From: Planctomycetes bacterium MalM25
GTDB taxonomy: Bacteria > Planctomycetota > Planctomycetia > Pirellulales > Lacipirellulaceae
Length of the DNA: 64,000 bases
Direction of reading: 5' to 3'
NCBI GenBank assembly: GCA_007745835.1
Contig: CP036424.1
Location: 2,591,968 to 2,655,967, forward strand
Both the position numbers and the translations under genes were made by a program. Within the stretch, counting starts at the first letter, position 1, and every line of letters begins with the position of its first letter. This document shows positions 21,159 through 46,287 of this stretch, piece by piece. The notes below the pieces were generated by a model. It had not been told where the DNA came from, did no database searches, and was given only the letters and a program-made list of their open reading frames with translations.

Positions 21159-22136
21159 TCACTCGGCCGAAGCCCAGCCATCCGCGCTGAGGCGGTTGAC
21201 CCGCGGGGCGTCGGCCTTGCGTGGAGGCGCGGGGCGACGGAAGGCGGTCGCCTGCGCGTTGGCCGGACGGCGGTAGACCGCCATCTTTGCCGGGGCGGGG
21301 TGAGCCCGCTGCGTGACCCGGTTGCTGGGCGGCGCGAACAGTGGCGGGGCACGCCAGTAGTCGTTCGCGGCGGCCGGGTCGGTCGGCGTCTTCTCGTCGT
21401 CGAAGCTGTCGTAGTTGTAGTCGTCGTCGAGCGAGTCATCCGTGTCGGGGCGCTGCACCTCGATGCTGCGTTCGGCAGGAACGTTGTCGTTGGGCGCGAG
21501 GGTGGGACGCGGCTCGACGTAGGAGGAGCCGCTGTCGTATGAATCGTAGGAAGAGGTGACCGAGCCACCCGCCGCGCACGAGCTGCACGACGACGAGGGT
21601 GAGGCCAAGTAAGTCGCTTGCTCGACCCCGCCGCAGGCGTTGCAGCTCCCGCAACCGGTGGAGCACGTATCGCAGGCCGGCGCGGCGACGACCGGCGACA
21701 GCACGACCGGACGGCTCACCGTCTGCGTGTAGGCGACCGGGCCGTAGCTGGCGGGGTAAGTCGGCCGGTAGGCGACTTGGTACGTCGGGGCGTAGCCCGC
21801 CGTGTACCGCGGCGTCGCGGCGTAGCCGACCGAGTAAGGCGCGTAGCCCGCCGTGTACGGAGCGTAGCCGGCGGTGTAGGGAGTCGCGCCGTAGCCCGCT
21901 GTGTAGGTGGTGTTGACTCGGTTCCAACCGAACAGGTTGCGCGAGAAGTTCGCCAGGGCCTTGCCGGGGTACCAACCGTCCGAGACGGTCGTCGTCGCCA
22001 CCACCGGAGCGGGGGCGGCCACCACCGGCGAGTACGCGACCGTCGGCGTGCCACAGCACTGGGCCGAGGCATCGACAGACGGGCCGGCGGCGAGGGCCAG
22101 CAGGGCGAACGGCATCAAGGGGAGCGAAGGACGCAT
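21159..22136 (-). CDS. Tyr/Gly-rich repeat surface protein
   Basis: 325 aa from ATG 22136, which puts a signal peptide (MRPSLPLMPFALLALAAG) first; an ATG 39 nt upstream is possible. After it comes a tract of repeats of the type TAGYAPY / TAGYGATP (about residues 80-125), a Cys-rich knot (CDTCSTGCGSCNACGG) and Ser-rich CSSC, then an Asp/Tyr-rich stretch and a basic end. The pattern suggests an exported structural or crosslinked envelope protein: Tyr and Cys could form covalent links. No known domain. Upstream gap to the ATPase gene is about 218 bp with nothing else clear. Confidence 0.68.
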   Translation of the reverse strand: MRPSLPLMPFALLALAAGPSVDASAQCCGTPTVAYSPVVAAPAPVVATTTVSDGWYPGKALANFSRNLFGWNRVNTTYTAGYGATPYTAGYAPYTAGYAPYSVGYAATPRYTAGYAPTYQVAYRPTYPASYGPVAYTQTVSRPVVLSPVVAAPACDTCSTGCGSCNACGGVEQATYLASPSSSCSSCAAGGSVTSSYDSYDSGSSYVEPRPTLAPNDNVPAERSIEVQRPDTDDSLDDDYNYDSFDDEKTPTDPAAANDYWRAPPLFAPPSNRVTQRAHPAPAKMAVYRRPANAQATAFRRPAPPRKADAPRVNRLSADGWASAE

Positions 22137-34841: not shown

Positions 34842-37061
34842 ATGAGAAAAGTCCGCACCGGCGGCGGCTGGCCCGCCGTCGCCTACACGTTCCGCAAGGC
34901 CCGCGAAGCGGGCGGTCTTGGCAAGTTCTGGTCCGCGATGCGCTCGCGCAACGCGTGCAAGACCTGCGCCCTCGGCATGGGGGGCCAGAAGGGGGGCATG
35001 GTCAACGAGGCGGGGCACTTCCCGGAGGTCTGCAAGAAATCGATGCAGGCGATGGCCGCCGACATGCAGGAGGCCATCCCGAGCGACTTCTGGTCCCGCC
35101 ACGGCGTGAACGACCTACGCGCGATGACGCCGCGCCAGCTCGAGCACAGCGGACGACTGGTCGAGCCGGTCCGATACCGGGCGGGGCAGGGGCACTATGA
35201 GCCGATCACGTGGGACACGGCGCTCGACAGCGTCGCCGACCGCCTCGCCAAGCTGACGCCCGAAGAGACCTTCTGGTACTTCAGCGGCCGCAGCAGCAAC
35301 GAGGCGGGCTTCTTGTTGCAGCTCTTCGCGCGGCTGTACGGCACGAACAACGTCAACAACTGCAGCTACTACTGCCACCAGGCGAGCGGCGTGGGGCTGA
35401 CGAGCGTCACCGGCAGCGGCACGGCGACGATCCAGCTGGAGGACCTCGACCAGGCGTCGATGGTCTTCCTGATCGGCGGCAACCCGGCGTCGAATCACCC
35501 GCGGCTGATGCGCACGCTCTTGGACCTCCGCCGGCGCGGCGGCGAGGTGATCGTCATCAACCCATTGGTCGAAACCGGCCTGGTCAACTTCAGCGTGCCG
35601 AGCGATCCGTGGAGCCTGCTGTTCGGTTCGAAAATCGCCACGGAGTACGTGCAGCCCCACATCGGCGGCGACTTGGCGTTGCTCATCGCGTTGCAGAAGC
35701 GGCTGCTTGAAACGGGCGCGCACGACGAGGGCTTCCTCACCCAGCACACGGCGGGCTGGCCCGAACTGCGCGAGGCGCTCGAGGCCGCCCCGTGGGACGA
35801 ACTGGTCATCCGGTCGGGCGTCGAGCGGGCGGAGATCGACCGCCTCGCCGACAAGTACGCCAAGACCCGCTCGGCCGTCTTCGCCTGGACGATGGGCATC
35901 ACCCACCACGCGCACGGCGTCGACAACGTGCAAGCGATCGGGAATCTTGCCCTGATGCGCGGCATGGTCGGCCGCCCCGGCGCGGGGCTCATGCCGATCC
36001 GCGGGCACTCGAACGTGCAGGGAATCGGCTCGGTCGGCGTCACGCCGCAGCTCAAGCAGGCGATCTTCGACGGCCTTCAGCAGCACTTCGAGGTGAAGCT
36101 GCCCACCGCCACGGGCCTCGACACGATGGCCTGCATGGAGGGCGCCACGGCGGGCGAGCTGAAGGCGGCCGTCTGCCTCGGCGGAAACCTGTACGGCTCA
36201 AACCCCGACTCGACCTACGCGGAGAAGTCGCTCGGCACGCTCGACCAGGTCACCTACCTGAGCACCACGCTCAACACGGGCCACGCCCGCGGCCTCGCCG
36301 ACGAAACGCTCATCCTGCCCGTCCTAGCCCGCGACGAGGAGCCGTACACGACGACCCAGGAGTCGATGTTCAACTTCGTGCGGCTCTCCGACGGCGGCCC
36401 CCGCCGGCTCGAGGGGCCAAGGGGCGAGGTCGAGGTCATCGCCGACCTCGCCGCGCGCGTCGCGCAGCGGCTGCTTGACCGCAACGGTGACCGCCCCAAC
36501 CTGCAAGCGATCGATTGGGACGGCATGCGCGACACGGGACGCATCCGCGAAGCGATCGCCCGCGTCGTGCCGGGCTGGGACCGGGTGGCCGAGATCGGAG
36601 AGACCAAGGAGGAGTTCCAGATCGACGGGCGCGTCTTCCACCAGCCCCGCTTCCCGACCGAGGACGGCCGCGCCCGGCTGCACACGCACGAGCCACCGTC
36701 GCTCAAGGGTACCGAAGACAACGAGCTGCGAGTCATGACGATCCGCAGCGAGGGGCAGTTCAACACGGTCGTCTACGAGGACTACGACCTCTACCGCGGC
36801 GTCGAGGGGCGGTACGTCCTCCTGATGCACCCGGACGACCTCCACCGGTTCAAGCTCAGCGACGGCGAAAAGGTCCGCGTCACCGGCCCGGCGGGCGAGA
36901 TGCGGCAGGTCCGCGCAACCGCGCTGCCCGCCATCCGCCCCGGCAACGCGGCGATGTACTACCCCGAGGCGAACGTGCTGGTCGACCGCGGCAGCGATCC
37001 GAAGAGCCGCACCCCGGCGTTCAAGGGCCTCGTCGTTACGATCGCGAAAGAGAACGCGTAG
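34842..37061 (+). CDS. FdhF/YdeP-type molybdopterin oxidoreductase
   Basis: 739 aa from ATG 34842. Molybdenum bis-MGD enzyme of the formate dehydrogenase-alpha superfamily. N-terminal iron-sulfur ligands: CKTC (Cys39, Cys42) and Cys64. The metal-site region SYYCHQASG puts Cys178 next to His179, the positions of Mo ligand and acid-base His in FdhF (there Sec-His). Later IGGNPASNHPR, TGHARG and MLYGSNPD-like segments bind MGD. YdeP homologues are linked to acid resistance; substrate unknown. The end overlaps the converging methyltransferase gene by 26 nt. No FdhD gene nearby. Confidence 0.86.
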   Translation: MRKVRTGGGWPAVAYTFRKAREAGGLGKFWSAMRSRNACKTCALGMGGQKGGMVNEAGHFPEVCKKSMQAMAADMQEAIPSDFWSRHGVNDLRAMTPRQLEHSGRLVEPVRYRAGQGHYEPITWDTALDSVADRLAKLTPEETFWYFSGRSSNEAGFLLQLFARLYGTNNVNNCSYYCHQASGVGLTSVTGSGTATIQLEDLDQASMVFLIGGNPASNHPRLMRTLLDLRRRGGEVIVINPLVETGLVNFSVPSDPWSLLFGSKIATEYVQPHIGGDLALLIALQKRLLETGAHDEGFLTQHTAGWPELREALEAAPWDELVIRSGVERAEIDRLADKYAKTRSAVFAWTMGITHHAHGVDNVQAIGNLALMRGMVGRPGAGLMPIRGHSNVQGIGSVGVTPQLKQAIFDGLQQHFEVKLPTATGLDTMACMEGATAGELKAAVCLGGNLYGSNPDSTYAEKSLGTLDQVTYLSTTLNTGHARGLADETLILPVLARDEEPYTTTQESMFNFVRLSDGGPRRLEGPRGEVEVIADLAARVAQRLLDRNGDRPNLQAIDWDGMRDTGRIREAIARVVPGWDRVAEIGETKEEFQIDGRVFHQPRFPTEDGRARLHTHEPPSLKGTEDNELRVMTIRSEGQFNTVVYEDYDLYRGVEGRYVLLMHPDDLHRFKLSDGEKVRVTGPAGEMRQVRATALPAIRPGNAAMYYPEANVLVDRGSDPKSRTPAFKGLVVTIAKENA

Positions 37062-38232
37062 CCCCGCCGACGACCCGCTCCGCCACCGGGTTGAGCCGGT
37101 GCTCGGCGACCCAGGCGACCGCGTCGACGCAGACCGCGTCACCGAAACCGAACAGCGCCTGGTTGAGCGACACGTTCACGCGGTAGTCGTCCGCACCCAT
37201 CAGCCGGGCGCACTCGTCGGCGTTCAGCAGCCGCACGCGGTACTCGCCCCGGCCGGCCTCGAAGAGGATCTGCCGCCCGCTGCCCCCCTTGGGCGTCCGC
37301 AGGCAGCCGGCGAGGCCGTCGGTCCGCAGCTCGGCCATCGACTTCCCCTTCCGCACCCGGCGGAAGACGGTGCCGTGGGACAAGCCCTTACCGGCGATCA
37401 TCGCATCCGCTGTCTCACGATGTTTCTCGCTCATCTGGTTGAGCAAGTACTCAGCGCGTTCCTCGTTCCACCACTGCTCGTCGTCGGGCGGGAGGCTATC
37501 GAGGATCGACCCGAGCGGCGCCTCGCCGTAGGTGGGCGGCTCCGGCAACGAGGCCAACGCCCAGTCGAGGTCGGTCGATCTGCGCATCTCCTCAACCAGC
37601 TTGGCCGGCCGCACCGTGCTCGGCTCCAGCTCCACGGGGGCCAGCATTTCCCCCTCCCCCCATGGGGGGAGGGGGATATTTTGCCCTACCACGAACAGCC
37701 GCGGACGGCTCTGCGGCGTGAAGTGGGCGGCGTCGACCATGATCGCGTCGGCGGCGTAGCCCAGCTCGTTGAGCGCCTCGATCAACGAACGGAAGTCGGC
37801 CCCGCCGTTCGACGAGAGCAGGCCCGTGACGTTCTCGATCAGCACCAGCGGCGGGCGGCGGTCGCCCATGCCGCGGAGCAGCTCGACCCAGCCCCAGAAC
37901 GCCGACGACTGCCCCGCGTTGAGCCCCTTGCGCGCCCCCGCGAGCGACAGGTCGGTGCAGGGGAACGAGGCGTGCGCGAGCAGCGCGTCGGGCACGTCGG
38001 CCGGATCGAGCCGGTGGATGTCCTCCAGCACGTAGTGCGGCGAGGGGCCGAAGTGGCCGTCGTGCATCCGCTGCTTCGCCGGGTCGAGGTCGTTCGCGAA
38101 AACGATCTCCCAGCCCGCCCGTTCGAGGCCCATCCGCGCGAGCCCCACGCCGGCGAAGAACTCCAGCGCGGTGCGGCCCTCCCGCGGGGCGGGGCAGGGC
38201 GTGCGGTCGAAGAGGCGGTTCTGGCGGTCCAT
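37036..38232 (-). CDS. DNA (cytosine-5) methyltransferase
   Basis: 398 aa from ATG 38232. Motif I FFAGVGLARMG (about 25-35), catalytic Cys92 in FPCTDLS, motif VI ENVTG (133-137), motif VIII PQSRPRLFVVG (173-183), and late motifs LNADECARLMG and NQALFGFGDAVC. It methylates C5 of cytosine at an unknown site. No restriction endonuclease is near, so it looks orphan. Oddity: right after motif VIII, residues 186-195 (PLPPWGEGE) are coded by a 26-bp perfect palindrome, as if a repeat was inserted in-frame. A frame extension upstream of 38232 is shadow. Confidence 0.9.
   Translation of the reverse strand: MDRQNRLFDRTPCPAPREGRTALEFFAGVGLARMGLERAGWEIVFANDLDPAKQRMHDGHFGPSPHYVLEDIHRLDPADVPDALLAHASFPCTDLSLAGARKGLNAGQSSAFWGWVELLRGMGDRRPPLVLIENVTGLLSSNGGADFRSLIEALNELGYAADAIMVDAAHFTPQSRPRLFVVGQNIPLPPWGEGEMLAPVELEPSTVRPAKLVEEMRRSTDLDWALASLPEPPTYGEAPLGSILDSLPPDDEQWWNEERAEYLLNQMSEKHRETADAMIAGKGLSHGTVFRRVRKGKSMAELRTDGLAGCLRTPKGGSGRQILFEAGRGEYRVRLLNADECARLMGADDYRVNVSLNQALFGFGDAVCVDAVAWVAEHRLNPVAERVVGGATRSLSRS
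37650..37675. repeat. 26-bp perfect palindrome inside the methyltransferase gene
   Basis: C5-T-C6-AT-G6-A-G5 reads the same on both strands. Equal in style to the GC hairpins at 38855 and 38912. In the coding strand it gives in-frame PLPPWGEG, with no stop. Confidence 0.85.
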
Positions 38233-38325
38233 CGCTCCCCAAGATAACCGCGGAGGGCGCGGAGGGCGCGGGGGGCCGAGACGTGCTCTAATCGGCCGCG
38301 ACCACCGCCGCCAAGAGGACCACCC

Positions 38326-38838
38326 ATGGACCCGCAGAAGATCTTCGACTCCCTCGAACGCTTCGGCCGCCAACTGCCGGGCGTGGTGGAGGGGCTCGCC
38401 GGGGAGGACGCCCGCTGGAAACCGTCGCCACGGGACTGGTCGGTCCTGGAGGTCGTCTCGCACCTGGCGGACGAGGAGGAGCTCGACTTCCGCCGGCGTC
38501 TCCGCTGGGTGCTCGATCAGAACGAGGGCCCCTGGCCGCCGATCGACCCCGAGGGCTGGGCGGTCGAGCGGCGGTACAACGAGGGCGATCTGTCAGCGGC
38601 GACCGAACGGTTCCGCACCCAGCGGGCGAAGTCCGTGGCGTGGCTGCGGTCGCTCGGCGAGGTTAACTGGGACCTCGCCTACCAGCACCCCGAGTTCGGG
38701 CCGATCCGCGCGGGCGACCTGCTCGGGTCGTGGTGCTGCCACGACCAGTTGCACCTCCGCCAGATCACGAAGCGGCTCTACCAGCTGGCCGCCCGCGACG
38801 CGGGCGAGTACACGGTGCTCTACGCCGGGCCATGGTGA
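38326..38838 (+). CDS. DinB/YfiT-family metal-binding protein
   Basis: 170 aa, helical four-bundle. Putative metal His residues lie in SHLADEEE and HDQLHLRQ (the H..H-x3-H spacing of DinB). DinB-like proteins are often thiol S-transferases; function cannot be fixed here. Start ATG 38326; the gap before it carries G-rich near-repeats. It converges with the GH16 gene across two hairpins. Confidence 0.82.
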   Translation: MDPQKIFDSLERFGRQLPGVVEGLAGEDARWKPSPRDWSVLEVVSHLADEEELDFRRRLRWVLDQNEGPWPPIDPEGWAVERRYNEGDLSAATERFRTQRAKSVAWLRSLGEVNWDLAYQHPEFGPIRAGDLLGSWCCHDQLHLRQITKRLYQLAARDAGEYTVLYAGPW

Positions 38839-38854
38839 AGTCGCGCCGTAAATC

Positions 38855-38875
38855 CCCCTCCCTCTCAGGGAGGGG
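38855..38875. repeat. GC-rich hairpin, 9-bp stem
   Basis: cccctccct / agggagggg with loop ctc. Between convergent genes; may stop transcription from both sides or be a repeat element. No U-tract on the plus strand. Confidence 0.6.
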
Positions 38876-38911
38876 CTAGGGGAGGGTAGAGCTGCGCGAC
38901 CCCTCACCCAA

Positions 38912-38932
38912 CCTCTCCCCACAGGGGAGAGG
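38912..38932. repeat. Second GC-rich hairpin, 9-bp stem
   Basis: cctctcccc / ggggagagg with loop aca, 36 bp after the first and 6 bp from the GH16 stop. Same purine/pyrimidine style. Confidence 0.6.
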
Positions 38933-38938
38933 CGTTAT

Positions 38939-39964
38939 CTACTTCTTCGCGACCGGCTCGTAGACGCGGATCCAATCGACCTTGAACGTGTGGTCGTCGG
39001 TCCGCTTCAGCTCCTCGTCGGTCGGCTGGCGACCGGCGGCGGCGTTCCAATCTTGGGCTTCCATGTTGATGACGATCTTCATCGGCTTCGACAGGCCGGT
39101 CCGTTTGCCAGACGCGTCCTTGGTATAGCCCTTCGGGTCGATGCCCCCCTTGCCGTCGACATCATCGAGCCCGCTGGTCGTCTTCACCAGCTCACCGTCG
39201 ATGTAGTACTCCAGCTCGGTCGGGCTCTTCCAGTAGACCCCCACGCGGTGGAACTTCTCGGTCCAGTAGCCGCGGCCCCGCTTCGGCTTGCGGTCACTGA
39301 CGATCCAGGTGCTGTCGTCCTTCGGCTGGTAATCTTGGAAGGGCCGGCGGATGAAGACGTGGTGACTCATGTGCAGCCGCCGCGCGAACCAGTCGGCGCG
39401 GTCGTCGTCGCCGCGGCCGCCGTAGCACTCCTGGATGTCGATCTCCTGCGTGCTGTCCTCGCTCAGCAGCCAGATGTCCGATGCGAGCACCGCGTTGGCG
39501 ACCTTCGTCTTCGCCTCGATGTAGGCCGGGTAGCGGACCGTCTCGATCGAGGTGATGCAGCCGAGCCGGGTCGCCGGGAGGTCGAGCCGCTTCGGCTTGC
39601 CGTCCGCGTCGACGCCGTGGACGAACTGCTTCGTCTCGCCCGGCTCGCGGGTGGCGCGGATCCAGAGGTTGCCCTTCGCCACGGCGACGTTCTCACGCCG
39701 CCACTCGGTCGTGCCGGGGCCCTCCCAGCCGCCGCGGAAGTAGCGGTTGGTCCACTTGTCGCTGAGGGTCGCGAACTCGGTGGTCGGCTTGTGGGTGTAG
39801 TTGAAGTCGTCCGAGACGACCTCGTTGAGCCGCCACTCCCGCCCCTCGCCCGCGTCGGCGGGGACGCGGTACCGCTTCCAATCCTGGGCGCCCGCGGCGG
39901 TCGCTATCGCCGCCATAACCAGGGTCCAAGCCCCCATTCGCAGCCTCATGGTACGCAGGTTCAT
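38939..39964 (-). CDS. Secreted GH16 beta-agarase-like enzyme
   Basis: 341 aa. Signal peptide about 1-26. GH16 catalytic motif QEIDIQECYG gives Glu174, Asp176 and Glu179; the downstream HHVFIRRPFQDYQ and the FHRVGVYWKSPTELEYYIDGE strands are typical of agar/porphyran-active GH16. No dockerin or PEP-CTERM tail, unlike the GH16 at 1348. Start ATG 39964; ATGs at codons 6 and 10 are also possible. It stands upstream (in its own direction) of an AT-richer gap where an islet begins. Confidence 0.88.
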   Translation of the reverse strand: MNLRTMRLRMGAWTLVMAAIATAAGAQDWKRYRVPADAGEGREWRLNEVVSDDFNYTHKPTTEFATLSDKWTNRYFRGGWEGPGTTEWRRENVAVAKGNLWIRATREPGETKQFVHGVDADGKPKRLDLPATRLGCITSIETVRYPAYIEAKTKVANAVLASDIWLLSEDSTQEIDIQECYGGRGDDDRADWFARRLHMSHHVFIRRPFQDYQPKDDSTWIVSDRKPKRGRGYWTEKFHRVGVYWKSPTELEYYIDGELVKTTSGLDDVDGKGGIDPKGYTKDASGKRTGLSKPMKIVINMEAQDWNAAAGRQPTDEELKRTDDHTFKVDWIRVYEPVAKK

Positions 39965-40223
39965 CGCCGCTTCTCCCGAGGGGGGGGGTTCCGAATAGAC
40001 AGCCGGGCCTCACCGGCTACCCCCGATTGTATGCAATCTGCAAGCGGGTGGCAAATCTGACGGTGCTGGGGTAGTTGCTACCTGCTGCATTGGCTAATCA
40101 ACACTTATGCACCGGCTGAAAGCACGCCATGGAGTGCATGCGACTTCGCTGTTGCACAAAATCCGCTGCTGCACATATATTCACAGTGCCACTAGACAAG
40201 CGAACACCACAAGGACGGGAGAA

Positions 40224-40397
40224 ATGCCTGCGAAAGAGCCTAATGATGGCGGCAATGTTGAACGGATTATTCGTGCAGTACCTGACTCGCTAGAAAGCGG
40301 GCAGTTCGGACAGAGCAGTGGGCGAACTGCTGACCGTGCACGGCAGATCGCTGAAGAAATAGCTAAACGCAAGGAAGCAGAAGGAGACAAGACATGA
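40224..40397 (+). CDS. Small hypothetical protein, islet gene 1
   Basis: 57 aa from ATG 40224 with AGGACGGGAG upstream. Charged and helical at the end (RQIAEEIAKRKEAEGDK). Stop overlaps the next ATG (ATGA). Visibly AT-richer than flanking genes, so likely acquired. Function unknown. An earlier in-frame ATG at 40107 would add 39 residues of poor quality. Confidence 0.5.
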   Translation: MPAKEPNDGGNVERIIRAVPDSLESGQFGQSSGRTADRARQIAEEIAKRKEAEGDKT

Positions 40398-40582
40398 GTT
40401 CGGATCGTTGGGTTCAAGAAGTAATTGAAGGGCAGTCAGCCAACAGGACTGCCAACAACGTCTCTTCGTCGCTCGAAGAGAGAGGACAATCATCTGCTGC
40501 AACAGCGCAAAGCGCTGCACAAGCGGTGAACCAAGTGCAGAATACTACGAACTCGAATAGCGGTAACTCCAAGGAGCGGTGA
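40394..40582 (+). CDS. Small Asn/Ser/Gln-rich protein, islet gene 2
   Basis: 62 aa. Starts in the ATGA overlap with gene 1; its TGA (40580-40582) overlaps the next ATG. Residues 25-55 are rich in Ala, Gln, Asn and Ser (AATAQSAAQAVNQVQNTT). No motif. Translational coupling suggests the three proteins work together. Confidence 0.5.
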   Translation: MSSDRWVQEVIEGQSANRTANNVSSSLEERGQSSAATAQSAAQAVNQVQNTTNSNSGNSKER

Positions 40583-41053
40583 TGAGTCCAGAGTGGGTCA
40601 GCGCCATATCTGCAGTTGTAACTGCTCTTACCGCGATATTTGGAGTAGCACTTGGTATTAGCCAGTTCTCCAAAGCCAACCAAAGCCTCAAGCTGAATAG
40701 CTTAGGTGTGTTGTTAAACTTGGAATGCGAACTGAATCGCTGCAAGCAACTGGTCAATGAAGCCACCAAAGAGCTTAAGGTCGAAACCGACCCAGCGAGG
40801 AAAGAGGCGTTACAAAGCTCTTTCGATCAACTTCGCGAAGACTGGTACAACACCGCTGACAGACTTGCCTACTGCAAACACCGCTGACAGACTTGCCTAC
40901 TGCATAAGGAACGGCTACATCGACAATGTGCGTATGCAGGCCGAGTACAGAAACTACTTCCTTGACATAATACGTAGCGACCCACACGCGTTTGGCGAAG
41001 GTACTGAGTGGAGGAACATCGTGGATCTCAACGGAGTGTGGCAGCGAAACTAG
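40582..41053 (+). pseudogene. Islet gene 3: membrane-anchored coiled-coil protein, broken by 28-bp duplication
   Basis: As it stands the frame from ATG 40582 stops at 40887 (about 101 aa). Residues 3-27 are one TM helix (WVSAISAVVTALTAIFGVAL), then a charged helical region (CKQLVNEATKELKVE). At 40849-40904 a 28-bp unit is repeated exactly; 28 is not a multiple of three, so the frame is lost. Removing one copy joins to the frame ending at 41053 (RNGYIDNVRMQAEYRN..VWQRN), giving about 147 aa. So the older gene was probably 147 aa. Known family: none recognised. If slippage is reversible this could act as a switch. Confidence 0.7.
40849..40904 (+). repeat. Exact 28-bp tandem duplication
   Basis: Units 40849-40876 and 40877-40904 are identical (aacaccgctgacagactt..). 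Confidence 0.95.
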
Positions 41054-41057
41054 CTGC

Positions 41058-42740
41058 TCACTCATCCGTCACGCACCCCTCCGACGCGCTCTTCACGTTC
41101 TTGATGTACTTGTAAAGCGTGCCGCGGGTCGCCTTATAGGCGGGGGCGGTCCAGGTCGCTTTCCGCTTGGCCCACTCTGCGTCGGGGAGGTCGACGGTGA
41201 TCTGGTTCGCCTCGGCATCGAGGACCATGCGGTCACCGTTCTGCACCAGGGCGATCGGCCCGCCGGCCTGGGCCTCGGGCGTCACGTGGCCGACGATGAA
41301 GCCGTGGCTGCCGCCGCTGAAGCGGCCGTCGGTGATGAGGGCGACGTCCTGGCCGAGGCCCGCGCCCATGATGGCGCTGGTGGGGGTGAGCATCTCCGGC
41401 ATGCCGGGGCCCCCCTGCGGGCCCTCGTAGCGGATGATGACGACGTCCCCCTTGTTGATCTGCTTCTGCTCCAGGGCGGCGAGCATCTCCTCTTCCGAGT
41501 CGAAGCAGTTGGCCACGCCCTCGAAGCGGAGGCCCTCCTTGCCCGTGATCTTCGCCACGGCGCCGTCGGGGCAGAAGTTGCCCCGCATGACGCGGAGGTG
41601 GCCCGACTCCTTGAGCGGCTTGTCGACCGGCATGACGATCTTCTGCCCCTCGGCGAGGCCGGGAAGGTCGGCGAGGTTCTCCTCGACCGTCTTGCCCGTG
41701 CAGGTCATCTGCGAGCCGTCGAGGTGGCCCGCTTCGAGCAGGTGCTTCATCACCGCCGGCGTGCCGCCAACCTCGTGCAGTTCCTCCTGGACGTACTTGC
41801 CGGAGGGCTTCAGGTCGGCCAGGTAGGGCGTCTCGTCGGCAAGGCGCTGGAAGTCGTCGAGCGACAGCTCGACGTCGAACGCCCGGGCCATCGCCAGAAG
41901 GTGCAGCACGGCGTTGGTCGAGCCGCCGGTGACCATGATGTACTTGATCGCGTTCTCGAACGACGCCCGCGTGACGAGGTCGCGCGGCTTGAGGTCCTTC
42001 TCCAGCAAGAGCTTGATCACCTCGCCCGCCCGGTGGCACTCGGCCTTCTTGTCGGGGTGCTCCGCCGGGATGCTGGAGGAGTACGGCAAGCTCAATCCCA
42101 TGACCTCGATGGCGGAGGCCATCGTGTTGGCCGTGTACATGCCGCCGCACGCGCCGGCGCCGGGGCAGCTCTTCTGAACAATCTCCTTCCGCTCTTCCTC
42201 GGTGATGCGCCCCGCGAGCCACTCACCGTAGCACTGGAAGGCGGAGACGATGTCGCGTTTCTCTCCCTCGGCGGTGAACTTGGTGAAGCCCGGCTTGATG
42301 GTGCCGCCGTAGACCATGATCGAGGGGCGGTTGAGCCGGCCCATCGCCATGACGCAGCCCGGCATGTTCTTGTCGCAGCCCGGCAGGGTCACGAGGCCGT
42401 CGTACCACTGGGCGGCGACGACCGTCTCGATCGAGTCGGCGATCAGGTCGCGTGACTGGAGCGAGTACGACATGCCGCTCGTGCCCATCGAGATGCCGTC
42501 CGACACGCCGATCGTGTTGAACCGCAGGCCGACCAGCCCGGCGGGCGCCATGCCGCTCTTCACCTCGCCGGCGAGGTCCATCAGGTGCATGTTGCAGCTG
42601 TTGCCCTCGTACCAGACGCTCGCGATGCCGACCTGCGGCAGGTTCATCTGCTCTTCGGTCATCCCCGTGGCGTACAGCATCGCCTGGCTGGCGCCCTGGG
42701 ACTTCGGCTGGGTGATCTTGCTGGAGTACTTATTGAGCAT
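41058..42740 (-). CDS. ilvD: Dihydroxy-acid dehydratase
   Basis: 560 aa from ATG 42740. IlvD makes 2-keto acids for valine, leucine and isoleucine with an iron-sulfur cluster. Ligand regions: GNSCNMH (Cys49), [10 protein letters not shown] (Cys122) and [12 protein letters not shown] (Cys198). Late GGPGMPEML and [12 protein letters not shown] are family marks. Extra frame upstream of 42740 is shadow. Its stop is 4 nt from the converging broken islet gene. No ilvC or leu genes nearby and no leader attenuator seen. Confidence 0.95.
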
Positions 42741-42846
42741 GACGGGTTGGGTCGTTGGAGAGCGAGCGAAGGTTTCCTTAGTTGAGGGAGAACAGTCTAG
42801 CCGGTAGGGGTTCGCGCCGGAGGGGGCGTGGAGGAGACTCCTCCGC

Positions 42847-43485
42847 ATGAGCCAGCCCCCCGAGTTCCTGTATTTTGACCTGGGCAAAGTCCTGCTCGAC
42901 TTCGACCACGCCCGCATGGTGCGGCAGATGGCCGGCGTGGCGGGGGTGTCGGAAGAGGCGATGCGGGCCGCCCTGATGCCCAGCGGCGACCCGACCGAGG
43001 GCGATCAGCAATGGGCCCTCGAAGCGGGCCAGCTCAGCGAGGACGCCTACTACGAGGGGCTGTGCGAACGCCTGGGCGTGCGGCCGCCGCGGGCCGAGTT
43101 CGAGCTCGCGGCGAGCGACATCTTCACGCCGATCCAGGCCTCGCTCGACCTCGTGACCCGGCTCCACGCGGCGGGCCACCGGATGGGGATCCTGTCGAAC
43201 ACCAACTCGATCCACTGGCGGTTCTTCCTGGACGGCCGCTACCCGGAGCTGATCGACGCCTTCGAGATCAAGCTCGGCAGCTTCGAGGTCGGCTCGATGA
43301 AGCCCGACCCGGTGATCTACCTGTCGGCAATCGAGCTGGCGGGCGTCCCTGCCGAGCGGGTCTTCTTCACGGACGATAAGCCCGAGAACATCGCGGGCGC
43401 GATGGCGGTCGGCATCGACGCCGTGCCGTTCACCGACACCGCGTCGCTGGTCGATGAGTTGAATCAGCGCGGCGTGCCGTGCTAG
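42847..43485 (+). CDS. HAD-superfamily hydrolase (YihX-like)
   Basis: 212 aa. Motif I is FDLGKVL (Asp11 nucleophile; Gly13 where many HADs have a second Asp), motif II SNTN, motif III Lys in MKPDP and motif [10 protein letters not shown]. The DxG form is usual in YihX-type sugar-phosphate phosphatases. Divergent from ilvD; 86 bp before the heptosyltransferase gene on the same strand. Confidence 0.84.
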
Positions 43486-43571
43486 CACGACACGCACGAT
43501 CCGCGTTGCTGGCGCCGGGCGATCGCGGATAGACTCTGCGTCTCACTAGCCCACTCGCCGGAGCCGCAAGG

Positions 43572-44627
43572 ATGCGACTCGGAATCTTCTTGCCGAACTG
43601 GATCGGCGACGCCGTCATGGCGACGCCCGCCCTCGACTCGCTCCGCGAACTCGCCGGGCCGCAGGGCCATGTCGTTGGCGTGATGCGGCCGTATGTGGCC
43701 GACGTGGTCGAAGGCCTCGGGGTGATCGACCGGGCCGTCTTCTACAAGCCGAAGGCGAAGGACGCCGCGCACCGCGCCAGCGCCGTCATCGAGACGCTCC
43801 GCGAGGAGCGGCTCGACGCGATCGTCCTGATGACCAACTCGCTGCGAACCGCCTGGCTTGCGTGGCGGAGCGGGGCGGGGGAGCAGATCGGCTACGAGCG
43901 CGACCAGCGTTCTTGGCTGCTGACGACCCGCCTGCGTGAACCGACCAAGCGGGGCAAGCGCGCTCCGCTGCCGGCGATCGATTCCTACCTGAACCTCGCC
44001 TACGCCGCCGGCGGTGAGTGGCGCTCGCCGACGATGCGCCTCGCCACAACCGGCGCCGACGAACGGGCCGCCGACGCGGCGTGGGAGCGGCTCGGTTTGC
44101 CCGAGGGCGAGCGGGTCGTCGTCTTCAACACGGGCGGCGCCTACGGCGACGCCAAGGGCTGGCCCGCCGAGCACTTCGGCGAGCTCGCGAAGCGGATCAT
44201 CGCGGATGGCAACCTGAGTGTGCTAATCAACTGCGGCCCCGGCGAGCGCGAGACCGCCGCGAAGATCGCCACGCTCGCCGACTCGCCCCGCGTGCGGAGC
44301 CTCGGCGAGATGGAAGACCTGCCGATCGGCCTCTCCAAAGCGGTGATCGCGCGGTCGCGGATGCTGGTGAGCACCGACAGCGGCCCCCGCTTCTTCGGCA
44401 TCGCCTTCGGCAAGCCGGTCGTGAGCCTCTTCGGGCCGACCGACCCGGGCGTCACCCGCACGCACTACGACGGCGAACAGCCCCTCTCGCTCTCGCTCGA
44501 CTGCCAGTTCTGCTGGAAGCGGGAGTGTCCGCTGGGGCATCACCGCTGCATGACCGAGTTGTCGGTCGACCGGGTTCACAACGCGGTTGCAAGCCAACTC
44601 GACCGAGGAGCCCGACATGCCGCCTGA
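43572..44627 (+). CDS. ADP-heptose:LPS heptosyltransferase-like (GT9)
   Basis: 351 aa, WaaF-type. GT9 transfers heptose to the LPS inner core at the cytosolic face. N-terminal FLPNWIGDAVMATPAL and C-terminal VSTDSGPRFFGIAFGKPVVSLFGPTDP are the family's two halves. A Cys pair (CQFCWKRECPLGHHRCM) near the end resembles the metal-like knot of some WaaF proteins. Its 3' end overlaps the GT4 gene by 11 nt. Confidence 0.88.
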   Translation: MRLGIFLPNWIGDAVMATPALDSLRELAGPQGHVVGVMRPYVADVVEGLGVIDRAVFYKPKAKDAAHRASAVIETLREERLDAIVLMTNSLRTAWLAWRSGAGEQIGYERDQRSWLLTTRLREPTKRGKRAPLPAIDSYLNLAYAAGGEWRSPTMRLATTGADERAADAAWERLGLPEGERVVVFNTGGAYGDAKGWPAEHFGELAKRIIADGNLSVLINCGPGERETAAKIATLADSPRVRSLGEMEDLPIGLSKAVIARSRMLVSTDSGPRFFGIAFGKPVVSLFGPTDPGVTRTHYDGEQPLSLSLDCQFCWKRECPLGHHRCMTELSVDRVHNAVASQLDRGARHAA

Positions 44628-45723
44628 ACCGCAAGCGGGTCGCCCGATCCGCGTGCTGACGGTCGGCATGAAGCCGGCCGTGAACGAGGCCCTCGCCGAG
44701 CGGGACGACCTCGAAGTCGCCGCCCTGACCCAGGGCGAGACGGAGGCCAAGCTGCAGGGCCGGCTGCGGGTGCTGCCTTATGCGCTGCGCGCCAAAGTCT
44801 CAACGGCCGCGGCCCGTGGCGTGCGCGAGGCGGCCGCCGCTTGGCGGCCCGATGTGGTGCAAACGTATGGGTCGCGCCCGCTGGCGCACACGACGCTCGC
44901 CTTCACCGGTCGCCGTGATCGGCCGCCGATCGTCTCCTACCGGGGGGTGACGAGCGTCCCTTCGCGGCTTCGCCTGGAGGACTGGATCACTTACTTGTCT
45001 CCGCTGGTCGATGCCCACGCTTGCGAATCGGCCGCGTCGCGCGACGGGCTGATGCAAGGTGGCGTCGATCCGACAAAGTGCTTCCTCGCCTACAACTGCC
45101 TCACGCGTCCGCCGGCTTCGGGCGTGGGACGGGAAGCCTTGGGCGAGTTCGACATCCCGGCGGACGCGACGGTCGTCGCTATGGTCGCCAACTTCCGGCG
45201 TGTGAAGGGGGGTGACGTGCTCTTGGAAGCGGCACGGCGCCTCGCCGATCTGCCGAACGTCTATTACCTGCTCTTAGGCGAGGTGCGGGATCGACGGCTG
45301 GTAAGTTTGGCGAACGACCCGGCCATCGCCCCCCGCGTTCGGCTCGCCGGCTTCCGCGCCGACGCGATGGACTTGGCGACCGCGGCCGACCTGTTCGTCA
45401 TGCCGAGCCGCGCCGAGGCGCTCTGCGTCGCGCTGCTCGAGGCGATGTCGTGCGGCGTCTGCCCGATCGTCAGCGATGCGGGCGGAATGAAGGAGGCGGT
45501 GCGCGACGGCGTCGATGGGCTGGTCGTCCCCAAGGGCTCGCCCGAGCCACTCGCCGACGCGATACGCCGACTCTGCCAGGATCCTCAAGAACGCCTCGCC
45601 AAGGGCCGCTCGGCCGCCGACCGATTCAACGCGATGTTCTCCCGAGAGGCCGTCGCCGAACGATTCGCAAGAGGCTACCGCGAGCTGCTCAATGGCGGCC
45701 TCAGGGCGCGGCAGGCAGCGTAA
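44617..45723 (+). CDS. GT4-family glycosyltransferase
   Basis: 368 aa from ATG 44617, which has GAGGAG upstream and overlaps the heptosyltransferase end. GT-B fold: second domain starts VVAMVANFRRVKGGDVLLEA and has the E-x7-E in MPSRAEALCVALLEAMSCG. Sugar donor and acceptor unknown; the overlap with a GT9 suggests a shared envelope polysaccharide path. Confidence 0.86.
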   Translation: MPPEPQAGRPIRVLTVGMKPAVNEALAERDDLEVAALTQGETEAKLQGRLRVLPYALRAKVSTAAARGVREAAAAWRPDVVQTYGSRPLAHTTLAFTGRRDRPPIVSYRGVTSVPSRLRLEDWITYLSPLVDAHACESAASRDGLMQGGVDPTKCFLAYNCLTRPPASGVGREALGEFDIPADATVVAMVANFRRVKGGDVLLEAARRLADLPNVYYLLLGEVRDRRLVSLANDPAIAPRVRLAGFRADAMDLATAADLFVMPSRAEALCVALLEAMSCGVCPIVSDAGGMKEAVRDGVDGLVVPKGSPEPLADAIRRLCQDPQERLAKGRSAADRFNAMFSREAVAERFARGYRELLNGGLRARQAA

Positions 45724-45876
45724 CCGATGCAGGCCGACCGATCGCCAGAGGGCGTTCAACCCTGACGCGCGCAACCTGCGGGAAACACCGGGTAACGGGA
45801 TCGGGGTGCCGCAGCGGGATCTAAGCTTGCTTGCCCAAGGCGGGCAAACCCTGCCCCCCCGCCCTAATGAGACACC

Positions 45877-46287
45877 ATGAACGCGCAAGTCCTGATCGTT
45901 GATGACGATCCCATGCTCCTCGCGAGCCTCCGACGCTGCCTCCAAGACCGTTACTCGATCCAGGTTGCCGAGTCTGGCGTAGAAGCCCTCAAGCACTTGG
46001 CTAACGCTGACGAGACACCGGTTGTCATCTCCGACTTACGGATGCCGGTGATGAACGGTGTTGAGTTCCTCATCCAGGCCTCGGAGATCACGCGGAACAG
46101 TCAGTTCTTGATGCTCACGGGCACCCCGAAAGACTCGGAACGCATCCGCAGCAGCCACGGCGACCTGGTCTCCCGCTTCCTCACCAAGCCTTGCAATCCT
46201 GACGACCTCGCCGCGGCGATCGATGAGGCTCTGGAGAACTACGCGCGAGCAACGTCCGCCGGCGCCCCGGTTGCCGTGCGAGCGTAG
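45877..46287 (+). CDS. Single-domain response regulator receiver
   Basis: 136 aa. Acidic pocket DDD (9-11), phospho-Asp53 in ISDLRMP, Thr in LTGTP and Lys in FLTKPC. No output domain, so it would act through protein contact or a phosphorelay. No kinase is nearby; the CheX-like phosphatase gene is 32 kb away. Start ATG 45877. Confidence 0.9.
   Translation: MNAQVLIVDDDPMLLASLRRCLQDRYSIQVAESGVEALKHLANADETPVVISDLRMPVMNGVEFLIQASEITRNSQFLMLTGTPKDSERIRSSHGDLVSRFLTKPCNPDDLAAAIDEALENYARATSAGAPVAVRA

Follow-up and report, generated by a model that had tools for sequence, protein, structure and literature searches.

A small membrane-protein gene in the window (the whole 64-kb stretch of DNA analysed here) appears, on well-supported grounds, to have been broken by an exact, out-of-frame tandem duplication of 28 bp. 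The two parts of the gene lie in different reading frames, and both run colinearly, end to end, with intact homologues across the junction, which identifies them as parts of one broken gene. We consider it probable that this gene was the last one of an acquired operon, and that a recent duplication has led to its loss of function in a form that could revert. The case is a clean one: distant homologues reveal that a tandem duplication splits a single gene, and the original gene can still be recognised.

The tandem repeat and the two reading frames

The duplicated segment occupies positions 40849..40876 and 40877..40904 of the forward strand. TRF, which listed two arrays in the 64-kb window, described the tract at 40849-40904 as an array of period 28 with 2.0 copies and a 100% match, and a script re-verified the identity of both units, as the original prediction had claimed. 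From base composition, only about 1.6e-11 exact tandems of period 28 are expected per 64 kb. An exact-tandem scan for periods of 8-300, which covered the window and 20 stretches of 20 kb from the same chromosome (464 kb of the 4.72-Mb genome), gave 18 as the next longest period after 28, and the remaining frame-shifting tandems of this sample had periods of 8, 10 and 11 only. A chance repeat is ruled out by the low expectation, together with a genome sample without any other period above 18. The second array listed by TRF in the window, at 21820-21883, has a period of 21, three copies and an 81% match.

The tract is exactly 56 bp long. A script showed that neither flanking base extends it, so that there is no perfect microhomology and an origin of the duplication by this route is excluded. 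The missing microhomology is no clue to how the duplication arose, nor can 28 identical bases date how recent it is.

The broken gene, here named o3, starts with the ATG at 40582, which overlaps the stop codon of the preceding ORF (o2), as read from the sequence. By script, the reading from this ATG reaches a stop at 40885-40887 after 101 codons, leaving a truncated membrane protein of 101 aa (40582..40887, plus strand), which is the N-terminal part of the gene and has its hydropathy maximum at residues 8-26. A second frame, open from 40736, ends with a stop at 41051-41053 and contains the C-terminal part (40877..41053, plus strand), with 58 codons plus the stop. The frame shift that had been read as cutting the product to 101 aa, with the other frame closing at 41053, was hence reproduced. 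The open tail by itself is weak evidence for one gene, because 7.4% of the base shuffles of the C-frame tail are open too. The nine residues encoded by the 28-bp unit are present in both halves, and the protein of a homologous locus (G471, see below) has that stretch once. Programmed ribosomal frameshifting was considered and rejected: the single Rfam match, to fiv_FSE, falls outside the tract (40512-40541) and, with 22.1 bits, below the cut-off of 53. Gene callers would truncate the family member in this window.

Homologues across the junction and an unnamed family

The C-terminal half (58 aa) found matches in 2 of 392 genomes, namely its own and G471, a genome from another family of the same order (E 3.2e-10), whose locus holds an intact ORF of 151 aa. 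The N-terminal half (first 98 residues) aligns with residues 1-102 of the G471 protein (35% identity, E 2e-19), and the C-terminal half (last 58 residues) with its residues 94-151 (41% identity, E 2e-15). The G471 protein matches four E. coli plasmid records, whose 160-aa products are identical (100% in 4/4); with this protein, the N-terminal half shares 27% identity and the C-terminal half 36%, the latter with E 5e-5 when plasmids were searched. The order in which both halves align with the intact 151-aa and 160-aa proteins bears out the earlier claim of a broken small membrane-protein gene.

A profile made of the window, G471 and E. coli sequences matched 4 of the 392 genomes of the phylum, G108 and G259 being new. 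When plasmids were searched with the G108 protein, 37 records matched at E up to 0.01, 17 with a coverage of at least 80% of the protein; these plasmids were nearly all enterobacterial or from Serratia, plus one from Shewanella and one from a fusobacterium, and six of the 37 records were opened. A 12-row profile, built from ten intact proteins plus both window halves, had matches in 7 of the 392 genomes, among which G300 and G389 were marginal and G128 was read as a further member. The intact members examined are therefore those of G471, E. coli, G108, G259, Shewanella, Fusobacteria, Citrobacter, Buttiauxella, Pantoea, Serratia and G128. Relatives that all have two copies and a conserved 101-aa protein had been named in advance as a refutation; instead, the repeated segment is single and in one uninterrupted frame in 11/11 intact members, all of them distant homologues, and a conserved 101-aa protein is ruled out.

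The family is rare, since the G471 protein found only itself among 295 genomes of its order (a sample in which the presence of the window's genome is uncertain), and one copy as the ancestral state rests on distant members. Among 97 genomes, the N-terminal half matched only its own and none of the 96 others, three of the same genus included, and genome-contig scans with this half and with the G471 protein gave no relatives. Only 2 of 5,426 E. coli genomes contain 80% or more of the E. coli cassette, and 1,388 records of the E. coli search match some part of the cassette query. A segment of ~95 bp in the first ORF of this cassette (NZ_CP035881.1, 7562-7656) explains the listed partial matches in other E. 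coli plasmids and chromosomes, with ~80% identity over 10% of the query.

Members of the family are encoded in several phyla, both on plasmids and on chromosomes; a single membrane helix is predicted for them, followed by a linker and by a C-terminal domain that is conserved. An N-terminal hydropathy maximum was found in 10/10 intact proteins computed, the weakest one in the fusobacterium (1.59), and by eye in G128. In the window gene, the single N-terminal membrane helix and the C-terminal domain are both there, the domain being out of frame. The family alignment contains one invariant column (N94 of G471) and a near-invariant one (Y117), either in or at the edge of the C-terminal domain, and the C-terminal half of the window gene retains both the equivalent N and the equivalent Y.

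None of the Pfam, PADLOC, PHROGs and NCBIfam libraries names the family, and the known Pfam, defence or phage families considered for the window proteins gave weak matches or none. In Pfam, DUF4760 (PF15956) stayed below the cut-off, with weak matches in 3 of the 12 alignment members (E up to 0.1, best 0.0035), and was listed for neither window half; Hol_Tox (E 6.5e-5), SNAP (E 7.7e-4) and LprI (E 1e-3) were weak matches of single members among the 12. PADLOC gave no match at E up to 10 for the upstream ORFs o1 and o2 or for either half of o3, and only isolated ones among the 12 alignment members, the best being DpdC (E 1.6e-4) in one of them. The PHROGs matches were all weak; among the 12 members, they included a DnaD-like helicase loader in one member and another PHROG in one (E 0.0019). 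No convincing NCBIfam family was obtained for o1, o2, the G471 and E. coli homologues or two E. coli upstream proteins, and the profiles reached at best E 0.76 and 0.16 against solved structures. A phage cargo was also rejected, as the N-terminal half and the G471 and G108 proteins had no match in phage records and no relative appeared in viral contigs. This unnamed, often plasmid-borne family of membrane proteins, with its small upstream partner, is the more lasting result of the analysis.

Upstream ORFs and the AT-rich islet beside ilvD

In 11/11 intact members, a small ORF is found directly upstream, either overlapping or a few bases off; that of Serratia is unannotated and was read from the sequence. 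Several of these upstream proteins are alike (best E ~1e-14, Citrobacter versus Buttiauxella). In the 4.8-kb Serratia marcescens plasmid AP028541.1, at ~320-660, both the homologue and the small ORF that precedes it lack annotation. The partner's place in the window is occupied by o2 (40394..40582, plus strand), a hydrophilic ORF of 62 aa from the ORF list, without any family above the cut-off, whose ends overlap o1 and o3. In turn, o1 (40224..40397, plus strand) is a hydrophilic ORF of 57 aa that begins at an internal ATG of a 96-aa ORF (40107-40397), with a Shine-Dalgarno-like sequence recognised by eye and no family match. Compared with the plasmid partners, o1 and o2 reached at best E 0.07, below significance. 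Shine-Dalgarno-like sequences can be seen by eye before all three ORFs and, together with their end overlaps, suggest that o1, o2 and o3 form one coupled operon. At the G471 locus (1947-2396), three short, overlapping hydrophilic ORFs precede the intact homologue; their C-terminal ends are similar by eye, which gives the impression of a duplicated small gene. Judged by eye, these small ORFs are like o1 and o2 in kind, and the one compared by sequence gave no match.

The three ORFs are located in an AT-rich islet of ~1 kb and ~50% GC (40040..41057, approximate limits drawn from GC windows and third-position GC), which is flanked by a GH16-like hydrolase gene (38939-39964, minus strand) and by ilvD (41058-42812, minus strand), both recognised by eye, and adjoins the 3′ end of the latter. 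Three GC windows of the islet (40000-40999) have values of 0.498-0.532, versus 0.644-0.724 in those of 36000-39749 and 41000-45999, whereas third-position GC is 0.40-0.68 in the islet ORFs and 0.93-0.94 in two neighbour genes. No convincing flanking repeats were found to mark the ends of the islet.

Nine of 29 relatives' loci were compared around ilvD. The window's DNA methyltransferase, likewise named by eye, has a relative that comes next after ilvD in G003, with a short gap, and one that lies ~1.3 kb from ilvD in G007, with other genes between; the distance in the window is ~2.8 kb. Three of the nine loci (G001, G002 and G007) have AT-rich stretches with unrelated ORFs beside ilvD (L006 3250-4500, L007 750-1500 and L013 750-1500). 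In this family of genomes, the stretch on the 3′ side of ilvD seems to be a slot whose content varies. The ilvD flank of G007 also contains small ORFs that, by eye, resemble a toxin-antitoxin pair of the RelE/ParE type. The window is part of one contig of 4.72 Mb. Its genome has 68 matches to SBP_bac_10/DUF1559 (PF07596), versus none in 14 control genomes, an abundance that points to a planctomycete.

Origin and consequences of the duplication

According to the explanation that we favour, the three-ORF operon beside ilvD would have been acquired horizontally, and the original product of o3 would have combined a single membrane helix with a helical linker and a C-terminal domain conserved in the family. 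An accident of replication or repair may have duplicated the 28-bp segment in tandem at the start of this domain. Since 28 cannot be divided by three, the reading leaves the conserved frame and terminates three codons past the first unit; the 101-aa product lacks most of the C-terminal domain and is most likely inactive. Slippage or recombination between the adjacent identical units could bring the gene back to one unit. The duplication is presumably recent, since the C-terminal half has no sign of decay: it keeps an open frame, the conserved residues, and an identity no lower than that of the N-terminal half (41% vs 35% with G471; 36% vs 27% with E. coli). A recent mutation and a phase switch had originally been offered side by side; the former fits a segment present once in intact relatives and an undecayed C-terminal half, whereas no two-copy relative was found for the latter.

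A phase switch, in which changes between one and two copies would be frequent enough for selection to retain them as an on/off control of the membrane protein, seems unlikely to us. In its favour are a direct and adjacent repeat that shifts the frame, an otherwise undamaged gene, and reports of reversible duplications in pneumococcal capsule genes (PMC4243769) and of a frame-shifting 4-nt repeat in icaC of S. aureus (PMC4117637). However, the unit is long and occurs in only two copies, and its second copy is present in 0/11 intact members examined, which indicates a family without a standing repeat. The gene is no known surface antigen, and in the single genome of the species compared, the repeat itself is the only positive evidence for a switch. 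That single genome is also the basis for suspecting an assembly error behind the second unit, or an accident confined to the sequenced culture, which we judge quite improbable. Assemblers tend to collapse repeat copies rather than add them, and a tract of 56 bp is shorter than ordinary sequencing reads; no further exact tandem of period >18 was found in 464 kb, so the assembly has no general excess of such repeats. Hardly credible at all is a functional 101-aa protein, made of a membrane helix plus a linker, with the duplication as a settled change: the truncated ORF retains its start, a Shine-Dalgarno-like sequence (by eye) and the membrane helix, but the C-terminal domain is in frame in 11/11 intact relatives, and it is in this domain, or at its edge, that the family alignment has its invariant and near-invariant columns.

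We give very little credence to a further reading, in which the gene would belong to an undescribed mobile two-gene cassette (a small soluble partner and a membrane-anchored effector) that would cross phyla on plasmids, and whose effector the host would hold reversibly off through the 28-bp duplication. If true, a costly accessory gene would be silenced and yet recoverable.

Spontaneous, reversible sequence duplications in the pneumococcal capsule genes of types 3, 8 and 37 were reportedly described by Waite et al. in 2001 and 2003. Like the one in o3, they are said to be precise duplications within an ORF, which in their case turn the gene off and can be lost again; phenotype and reversion were described for them, whereas o3 encodes an uncharacterised membrane protein known from its sequence. 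The icaC gene of S. aureus carries several copies of a 4-nt repeat that shifts the frame, and its reversion has been demonstrated (PMC4117637). As in o3, the frame of a membrane-protein gene is shifted when the number of repeats changes, which removes the C-terminal end of the protein, but the unit of icaC is 4 nt long and repeated several times, versus one extra copy of a 28-bp unit in o3. Tandem repeats of variable copy number have also been compared among strains of M. tuberculosis, where units lie inside genes like that of o3, vary in copy number and in some cases shift the frame (PMC12817950); for o3, a single genome was analysed. If both states of o3 occurred in culture, the tract would represent a switch whose unit is longer, and whose copy number is lower, than in the classic simple-repeat switches.
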